64,000 nucleotides of DNA, taken from assembly GCA_029260075.1 (NCBI GenBank), contig JAJDDY010000089.1:1-64000 (forward strand). Direction: 5' to 3'. The notes under the pieces were generated by a model. It was not told the DNA's origin. It was given only the letters and a program-made list of their open reading frames with translations, and did not search any database. Both the position numbers and the translations under genes were made by a program. This stretch comes from Phycisphaerae bacterium. Lineage in GTDB: Bacteria > Planctomycetota > Phycisphaerae > UBA1845. Positions 47,006-51,241 of the stretch are shown in pieces; within the stretch, counting starts at the first letter, position 1, and every line of letters starts with the position of its first letter.

Positions 47006-47167
47006 TGCGTTGTCACAGCTAAATCTACGGGTTGTGACGGCATCGGAGCCGCGGGCGCCAGCCCGGGAATCGGTCCCGCCGCTGGCGCGGCGGGCTCTGA
47101 CCGGCGGGCGTGGCTTCGGTGGTGCGGGCGGCGACAACCCGAAGACTACGGTGTGACGCTGCACTAG
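47002..47167. repeat. Family A variant element with complete CTAG ends; supplies a stop codon
   Basis: Left end CTAGTGCGTTGTCACAGCTA, right end (reverse complement) CTAGTGCAGCGTCACACCGT; the terminal inverted repeat extends about 34 bases with mismatches. The interior differs from other copies: GAGCCGCGGGCGCCAGC pairs with GCTGGCGCGGCGGGCTC. At 166 bases it is the clearest complete element. The TAG at 47003-47005 is the flotillin stop codon. Confidence 0.85.
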
Positions 47168-47306
47168 TGCGTTGTCACGACTCAAGTGACAGGTTCGTCC
47201 GGTCCGAACCGCGACCGTGGGGGAGCGCTTTCGAGCTGTCACAACGGGATTGGAAAAGTCCGCGTCCTTACGGTCGCGGCTCGGTAAACCCGTCATCGGA
47301 CACGTG
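47164..47306. repeat. Family A element sharing its CTAG with the preceding element
   Basis: Starts CTAGTGCGTTGTCACGACTC at the same CTAG that ends the previous element, then AAGTGACAGGTTCGTCCGG, hairpin arms GAACCGCGACCGTGGGGGAG and CCTTACGGTCGCGGCTCGG, and AAACCCGTCATCGGACACG. The right-hand CTAG is lost. The methyltransferase gene begins about 30 bases later. Confidence 0.8.
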
Positions 47307-47337
47307 GGTAACCGGTGTTCGGAGACATGGGTAACAC

Positions 47338-48133: not shown

Positions 48134-49153
48134 TCAATTCCGATACGTCTCGTGACATGCCTTGCACGAACGCATGAGCACTTGGAGTCGTCCGCTCATG
48201 TCGTCTGTCGACAAACGCCCCTCGGCGCATCCGTCCTCCACCGCCTCGCCATACTTCGACGCGTCCGCGATTCGCAAACGGAAATCCGGCGACTTCGCCT
48301 TGACCTGATCATCGTCCAACAGGTCACGCAACAGGTCCGCCAGCCGCCCCGCCTCCGCAACCGGCACGAGGTCGGGATGGTCATCGGGCGTTTTCCAACC
48401 CGCACGTTCGATAAGCTTGAGGCGATCGAGGCAGCCATCGATTTCGACCATGGTCTTGATGAGACCGCTCGTTTTCCACGCAGCGGGAAACTCATTTCCA
48501 GCCGCCGCTAACTCCTCCGACCCCGCAAGACGTGTATCCACGACCCACCGGAAGAGACCTGCATATTCCTTGGACGTGCCGGACACACGCATACGCCCCA
48601 CGGCCTGGTCGGGCGTGAGCCGGCCAAGCGCGACCGCAACTGCACCCGATGCAGCAGCGGACCGATGCTTGCCGTGGTGGCAGTGAATGTATATCGGCGC
48701 GAGCGGCGCTTGCGCTAGCGCCAGCTGCACCGCCCTAGCCAACTCCAGCGTCCGCCCGCGAACCGCTCCGTCATAACCGATGGGTAGGTGAACATATCGC
48801 ACACCGCGCGCTGCGGCGATGTTCGCGGACGGTACAGCGCCATCGACAGACATGACCATCCGAACACCCATGGCCTGAAGCGTCGAAAAACCCGCGTCGC
48901 CCTCCGGCGCAGACCCCGACAGCAACGCCGGACCATAGGCCACCACATTGTGTAGGCCGGGGTAGTCCACAGGTAGACTCGCGTTTGGCGAGGGCAGTTG
49001 AACAGTCGCCCGGCCAGAACGCTGCGTGAACACCGAACCCGCGTCGTCATCGTGTATGGACCGACCGGCATGTTCGGGGCGCGCGCAGCACGTTTGAACG
49101 ATGGGAAGAGCGAGGACGACAATTGTAATCGTGCGGTGCCTCATGGAGTTCAT
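48134..49153 (-). CDS. Exported dual-specificity-phosphatase-like protein fused to a haem-binding C-terminus
   Basis: A 339-residue protein with a signal peptide (ITIVVLALPIVQTCCARP). Residues about 70-200 form a phosphatase-like domain with the P-loop HCHHGKHRS (His157, Cys158, Arg164), preceded by VHLPIGYDG. Residues about 235-339 look like a helical cytochrome c prime-type domain ending in a single haem-binding motif CKACH (Cys330, Cys333, His334) nine residues from the C-terminus, the usual place for that fold. Cys-dependent phosphatase chemistry outside the cytoplasm together with a covalent haem is unusual. The start is uncertain: 49153 or 49144; the open frame extends further upstream without a signal peptide match. 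Confidence 0.8.
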   Translation of the reverse strand: MNSMRHRTITIVVLALPIVQTCCARPEHAGRSIHDDDAGSVFTQRSGRATVQLPSPNASLPVDYPGLHNVVAYGPALLSGSAPEGDAGFSTLQAMGVRMVMSVDGAVPSANIAAARGVRYVHLPIGYDGAVRGRTLELARAVQLALAQAPLAPIYIHCHHGKHRSAAASGAVAVALGRLTPDQAVGRMRVSGTSKEYAGLFRWVVDTRLAGSEELAAAGNEFPAAWKTSGLIKTMVEIDGCLDRLKLIERAGWKTPDDHPDLVPVAEAGRLADLLRDLLDDDQVKAKSPDFRLRIADASKYGEAVEDGCAEGRLSTDDMSGRLQVLMRSCKACHETYRN

Positions 49154-49226: not shown

Positions 49227-49377
49227 GTGTTCTGCCACGCATCGAATGATGGGTTTACCGAGCCACGCCCGTAAGGAAGCGGACCTTTCAAATCCGGTCG
49301 TGACAGGTTGAAATCGCTCCCTCACGGTCGCGGCTCGGATCGGACGAGCCCGTCAATCGGGTCATGACAAAGCACTA
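49227..49377. repeat. Family A element, near complete
   Basis: Left end degenerate (GTTCTGCCACGCATCGAATG), then GGGTTTACCGAGCCACGCCC, the complementary arm CTCCCTCACGGTCGCGGCTC, and a right end GTCATGACAAAGCACTAG, which is the inverse of the CTAGTGCTTTGTCAC terminus. Positions 49378-49512 show no gene. This copy lies in the 5' flank of the phosphatase fusion rather than at a stop codon. Confidence 0.82.
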
Positions 49378-49512
49378 GCAAGAATGCTGCCAGGAGATAC
49401 CTACTAAGGACGAAATCCCTATCGTGCTGCGGCCAAGATTCCTATCTCGCCCATTCGCACCGGCCGGGGAACGGCCGCTACACCCCGTGGAACGCGATCT
49501 GCCCGAATGGAT

Positions 49513-51092: not shown

Positions 51093-51241
51093 GTGCTCTG
51101 TCACGACCCAAGTGACGGATTCGTCCGATCCGAGCCGCGACCGTGAGGAAGCGTTCCCAACCTGTCACCACAAGCTTTCGAACGTCCGCTTCCTCACGGG
51201 CGCGGCTCCGTAGACCCGTCATTCGCTGTGCGACACAGCAC
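51093..51241. repeat. Family A element, complete but degenerate ends
   Basis: GTGCTCTGTCACGACCCAAG at the left is the inverse of GCGACACAGCAC at the right, although the terminal CTAG is lost. The interior has GATCCGAGCCGCGACCGTGA paired with CCTCACGGGCGCGGCTCCG. Length 149 bases, equal to the other full copies. Confidence 0.82.

Follow-up and report, generated by a model that had tools for sequence, protein, structure and literature searches.

The window, the whole 64-kb stretch of DNA that was analysed, carries on its reverse strand a gene whose product joins a phosphatase-like domain of the DSP/PTP fold to a C-terminal domain predicted to bind haem. The gene and its features are as follows:

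48134..49153, (-) strand: fusion gene for an exported DSP-cytochrome of 339 aa, with its ATG at 49153 and its stop ending at 48134; full-length orthologues exist
49082..49153, (-) strand: signal region, residues 1-24, with a basic n-region, a hydrophobic core and CC at 22-23; a possible lipoprotein signal
48494..48991, (-) strand: DSP/PTP-fold domain, about residues 55-220, from AlphaFold2 (pLDDT ~95-99), Foldseek, VIA and profile matches
48770..48772, (-) strand: D128, at the position of the general acid Asp105 of TpbA, from a profile alignment (PMC4409338)
48659..48685, (-) strand: catalytic P-loop H157-C158-H-H-G-K-H-R164-S165, from conservation among aligned relatives
48137..48490, (-) strand: four-helix bundle of the class II cytochrome c type, residues 222-339, from AlphaFold2, structural matches and profile matches
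48449..48451, (-) strand: Met235 in helix A, the predicted distal haem ligand, from conservation, alignment to b562 and c-556, and structural ranges
48152..48166, (-) strand: haem-attachment motif C330-K-A-C333-H334, followed by the invariant R338, from conservation

The N-terminus, MNSMRHRTITIVVLALPIVQTCCARP, resembles by inspection a Sec or lipoprotein signal; a strict lipobox is present in 28 of 92 relatives and a relaxed lipobox in others. At the opposite end the chain reads ...RSCKACHETYRN, with CKACH spanning residues 330-334, five residues from the C-terminal end. The fusion gene stands alone: 46 bp past its stop lies the end of a convergent methyltransferase gene, and 359 bp before its start lies that of a same-strand aminotransferase class V gene. 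The genome from which the window comes has three cytochrome c assembly genes, and it encodes two other cytochrome c'-like exported proteins (L102 and L103, own-genome C77 and C19).

A dispersed intergenic repeat of ~145 bp occurs in both orientations at 47164-47307, 49227-49378, 51093-51241 and about ten more places in the window. Its core, CCCTCACGGTCGCGGCTCGG, has 18 matches in 64 kb versus 0.05 expected, and the repeat resembles a MITE or a REP-like element.

The phosphatase-like domain

HCHHGKHRS, residues 157-165, forms a complete HCX5R loop. In the AlphaFold2 model, the DSP domain has periplasmic TpbA as its best Foldseek match (E 1.6e-6), and VIA superimposes it on solved DSPs over ~142-155 residues with Z 15-17. 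A family profile searched against the PDB likewise finds TpbA, at E 2.6e-9. PTP-SAK matches the window protein alone weakly (E 7e-4, under the Pfam cut-off) and 72 of 74 relatives, the best at 2e-8; family profiles also match the DUF442/BLH phosphatase-like family. The Pfam entries PTP-SAK and BLH_phosphatase (DUF442), among the best matches of this half of the protein, cover a phosphatase-like domain with no cytochrome partner.

Alignment of 92 sequences reveals invariant H157, C158, G161 and H163 in the loop, with R164 in 91/92, and further invariant positions of the domain at D104, H122, P124, Y127 and Y155. C158 is also present in all 38 further members from a profile search. CX5R is retained in all but one aligned sequence, a P-loop His is altered in a few, and the P-loop Arg is followed by Ser, which a minority of relatives replace by Gly. 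Conservation of the loop within the genome-scan set arises partly by selection, because the scan was seeded in part with YIHCHHGK; CxxCH was no seed.

In Pseudomonas aeruginosa, TpbA (PA3885) is an active DSP of the periplasm, with the sensor protein TpbB as its target (PMC4409338). Like the fusion protein it is exported, adopts the DSP fold and possesses an HCX5R loop, and D128 aligns with its Asp105; unlike the fusion protein it has no haem domain, and its loop reads HCKHGNNRT rather than HCHHGKHRS. The D128 position varies among Asp, Asn, Ser and His, with Asp in only about half of the relatives. TpbA without its general acid shows a 53% loss of catalytic efficiency (PMC4409338), and because the drop is only of this size, a variable D/N at 128 is compatible with activity. 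A disulfide redox switch was considered and rejected: no second Cys is conserved, and residue 203, a Cys in 57/92 sequences, is Trp in the window protein.

The predicted haem domain and its probable ligands

AlphaFold2 prediction of the full protein from 74 sequences yields a mean pLDDT of 90.7; from residue 51 onwards, blocks of ten residues score ~91-99. The haem domain predicted alone reaches pLDDT 95. Its four helices span residues 230-250, 264-278, 289-311 and 316-337, and a conserved W-P-HPDL loop leading from helix A to helix B marks the fusion family. The best Foldseek matches of this domain are cytochrome c' and engineered cytochrome cb562, at E 0.08 and above, none of them significant. 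The same two kinds of protein hold the top VIA ranks (Z 11.7-13.0), with Shewanella violacea cytochrome c' at Z 13.0 and an rmsd of 2.2 over 101 residues. Because helical bundles score high by chance, the structural match was weighed together with independent sequence-profile matches to cytochrome c' in the PDB (E 3e-6 to 4e-5). The haem-domain profile also matched designed PPR proteins, and these matches were set aside as repeat artefacts.

Cytochrom_C_2 matches the window protein alone at E 0.017, with 16.5 bits versus a cut-off of 26.5, and 67 of 74 relatives at E<=0.1, the best at 1.2e-7; an NCBIfam search of the window protein returned no match. The Pfam check suggested with the original prediction gives matches to both halves among the relatives, and matches under the cut-off for the window protein taken singly. 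The prediction itself, of an exported Cys-phosphatase domain and a class II haem domain in one chain, agrees with two confidently modelled domains bearing intact motifs. It had also allowed for CKACH lying outside any helical bundle or being absent from orthologues: a four-helix bundle is predicted around the motif with high confidence, and the orthologues keep CxxCH. From the fold and the motif we infer that the C-terminal domain covalently binds haem as a class II cytochrome, and the cytochrome c assembly genes of the genome favour this reading.

Cytochrome c' and c-556/b562 possess the same four-helix bundle. Class II cytochromes c share with the fusion protein a C-terminal CxxCH and an Arg at His+4, and a Met at the distal position is common to c-556/b562 and the fusion protein. 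Class II cytochromes are free-standing, whereas here the domain comes after a phosphatase domain. NaxLS (Kusta0087/0088), from an anammox planctomycete and thus the same phylum, has the same bundle (Z 12.7, rmsd 2.5 over 103 residues) without a phosphatase domain, and Met235 would fall on its Cys32 by residue numbering. The partner of NaxLS is hydrazine synthase (PMC8388095).

The predicted distal side of the haem is marked by Met235, present in 92/92 aligned and 38/38 profile-found sequences (130/130). Global hhalign alignments, using standard b562, c-556 and Alcaligenes cytochrome c' reference sequences, put Met235 in register with Met7 of b562 and with Met12 of c-556; the b562 match is not significant, and its alignment register alone was taken. 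In the VIA superposition, model residues 12..121 correspond to b562 residues 1..106, so that by counting Met235 falls at residue 7 and His334 at residue 102, assuming gapless helices A and D. In b562 and c-556, these Met and His residues are the haem ligands. The start positions of hmmsearch matches put the distal site three residues off both other placements, and for this reason the placement was taken from hhalign and VIA.

Since the invariant Met235 superposes on the distal-ligand position, the haem is probably six-coordinate through His334 and Met235, c-556-like rather than an open NO-binding cytochrome c'. The distal site of Alcaligenes cytochrome c' is occupied by the non-ligating Leu16, and the Arg four residues past its haem His governs proximal NO binding (PMC11201058). 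R338 corresponds to this residue, Arg124. A non-ligating distal residue, the mark of a strict cytochrome c', is replaced by Met in every fusion-family sequence compared.

Distribution and arrangement of the two domains

CxxCH is kept in every relative with a complete C-terminus, comprising 92/92 aligned and 35/35 profile-found sequences. C330, C333, H334 and R338 are invariant in the 92 aligned sequences, at identities down to ~31-33%, and CxxCH turns up in 0.4% of shuffles of the window protein. The genome scan recovers 166 relatives; among the 80 retained, almost every one bears a planctomycete title, and the exceptions (Limnohabitans, Chitinophaga and similar) are metagenome bins.

A search for the same architecture in Planctomycetota, suggested with the original prediction, was made across 392 genomes of the phylum with a profile seeded on neither motif. 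Strong matches occur in ~135/392 genomes, and ~130 of these, counted from the listed rows, reach the C-terminus and carry the full-length fusion. Of the 38 further members examined, three have no end, either because the contig stops or because the match is cut. Cultured Aquisphaera giovannonii carries the fusion gene on a plasmid, and the fusion is therefore no metagenome artefact. The literature search, with most subscription papers outside its reach, returned no description of a fusion between a PTP/DSP domain and a class II cytochrome, in keeping with the earlier statement that no characterised protein with this pairing was known. Both kinds of domain are known; their pairing appears new, no description of it having been found.

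In two genomes the two domains are encoded by separate, neighbouring genes on the same strand. At one locus (L138, 773-1767, - strand), the phosphatase gene (1767-1216) overlaps the cytochrome gene (1219-773) by 4 bp, GTGA, and the cytochrome product is lipoprotein-like with its own signal peptide. At the other (L137, 641-1782, + strand), the phosphatase gene runs from 641 to 1267, and next comes a cytochrome gene whose start lies near 1312 or 1351. The Met and CxxCH are retained in each of the two free cytochromes. That the split domains stay adjacent genes supports joint work of the two and is the strongest evidence for it.

Other arrangements also occur. L155 (482-2386, - strand) encodes a single protein combining a sodium/calcium exchanger domain (Na_Ca_ex, Pfam 1e-58), a DSP-like domain and a cytochrome domain; its P-loop is altered to TCETGRDR, with the loop His lost and CX5R kept, and its haem motif is CTRCH. 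L099 encodes a free-standing exported relative of the haem domain, 159 aa long, with the same Met, the HPDL loop and CATCH. Free TpbA-like phosphatases are common as well.

Comparison of the fusion loci reveals no phylum-wide conserved neighbour, operon partner or substrate gene, and no recurring denitrification or NO genes nearby. In a related subgroup (L038, L040, L042, L053 and L079), the fusion gene is divergent from an apparent RND efflux operon of outer-membrane factor, adaptor and pump. At three loci a convergent histidine kinase gene lies directly downstream of the fusion gene (L004:4840-6921, L006:6873-8846 and L020:7071-9041, all - strand). A CHASE8 sensor domain is present in three neighbours, which, paired by sequence inspection, are probably these kinases; at least two of the three look shared by descent. 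One CHASE8 kinase is encoded elsewhere in the window's genome, and E. coli has a CHASE8 protein too. YfiN/TpbB, the substrate of TpbA, has a sensor of the CHASE8 type, and a CHASE8 kinase next to the fusion gene, with its possible tie to a TpbA-type target, serves as a lead only.

Predicted function and alternatives

We tentatively predict that the fusion protein acts at the envelope as a phosphatase with TpbA-like chemistry, gated by its redox-active haem. It would be a DSP-type cysteine phosphatase, exported and in many cases lipid-anchored, with a C-terminal, haem-binding class II cytochrome, in which Cys158 would form the phosphocysteine and Arg164 would hold the phosphate, as in TpbA. The substrate, from which phosphate would be removed, may be an envelope protein or a small molecule. 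The haem domain would swap electrons with periplasmic carriers and sense or set the redox state, and phosphatase activity could be altered either via a redox-linked conformational change or via protection or re-reduction of the catalytic thiol. Redox regulation of the phosphatase by the haem, one branch of the original prediction, is plausible. Weighing against a haem-gated phosphatase are the general-acid Asp, seen in only about half of the relatives, and the lack of a conserved operon partner or substrate gene and of a second conserved Cys that could serve a disulfide switch.

The other branch, regulation by NO, fares less well. A gas sensor, in which NO or CO on the haem switches the phosphatase, would suit the fold, which is that of NO-binding cytochrome c', and the invariant R338, equivalent of the proximal-NO Arg of Alcaligenes cytochrome c' (PMC11201058). 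Met at the distal site in 130/130 sequences, as against the non-ligating Leu16 of cytochrome c', points instead to a six-coordinate His/Met haem, and the loci show no recurrent denitrification or NO genes nearby, making this explanation quite unlikely. The cytochrome domain might otherwise be a structural or docking module that leaves catalysis unaffected and serves for dimerisation or for attachment to a respiratory complex. Cytochrome c' commonly dimerises via helices A and B (PMC5368077), and the split genes show that covalent joining is unnecessary; however, conservation is strongest at the distal Met and the haem-binding residues, beyond the needs of a scaffold, and we regard a purely structural role as somewhat unlikely. 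The idea that CKACH arose by chance in an ordinary secreted phosphatase could draw on the single-protein Pfam score, which lies under the cut-off, but every complete orthologue keeps the motif, inside a predicted bundle of the cytochrome c' fold, and this conservation rules chance out as a vanishingly improbable explanation.

The phosphatase half can also be read differently. Were the DSP fold repurposed, Cys158 would act by thiol redox chemistry on an oxyanion of sulfur or phosphorus, or bind a metal, while the His/Met haem moved electrons. Such a role would fit a haem that looks of the electron-transfer type, an unusually His-rich P-loop, a general-acid Asp and a Ser after the Arg that are not conserved, profile matches to the DUF442/BLH phosphatase-like family, and the three-part fusion of L155, which lost the loop histidines yet keeps CX5R. 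Against it, a complete P-loop with an invariant Cys and a nearly invariant Arg is the signature of a phosphatase, the closest solved relative, TpbA, is an active one, and the variable acid is weak evidence, TpbA losing only 53% of its efficiency without it (PMC4409338). Repurposing is accordingly doubtful, and it is improbable that the PTP fold acts as a haem-coupled periplasmic redox enzyme whose P-loop Cys works on an oxyanion or thiol and delivers electrons to its own cytochrome.

The fusion is kept across a bacterial phylum, and its parts are still neighbours in the two genomes where they are split. It is invisible as a haem fusion to current annotation: the Aquisphaera plasmid member, for example, is annotated only as a dual-specificity phosphatase. 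If the haem controls the phosphatase, as our preferred reading of a haem-gated envelope phosphatase proposes, the protein would provide a direct, built-in link from periplasmic redox state to protein dephosphorylation, and envelope phospho-signalling in Planctomycetota would become testable with one purified protein. Envelope dephosphorylation may thus be tied to redox state in many planctomycetes.
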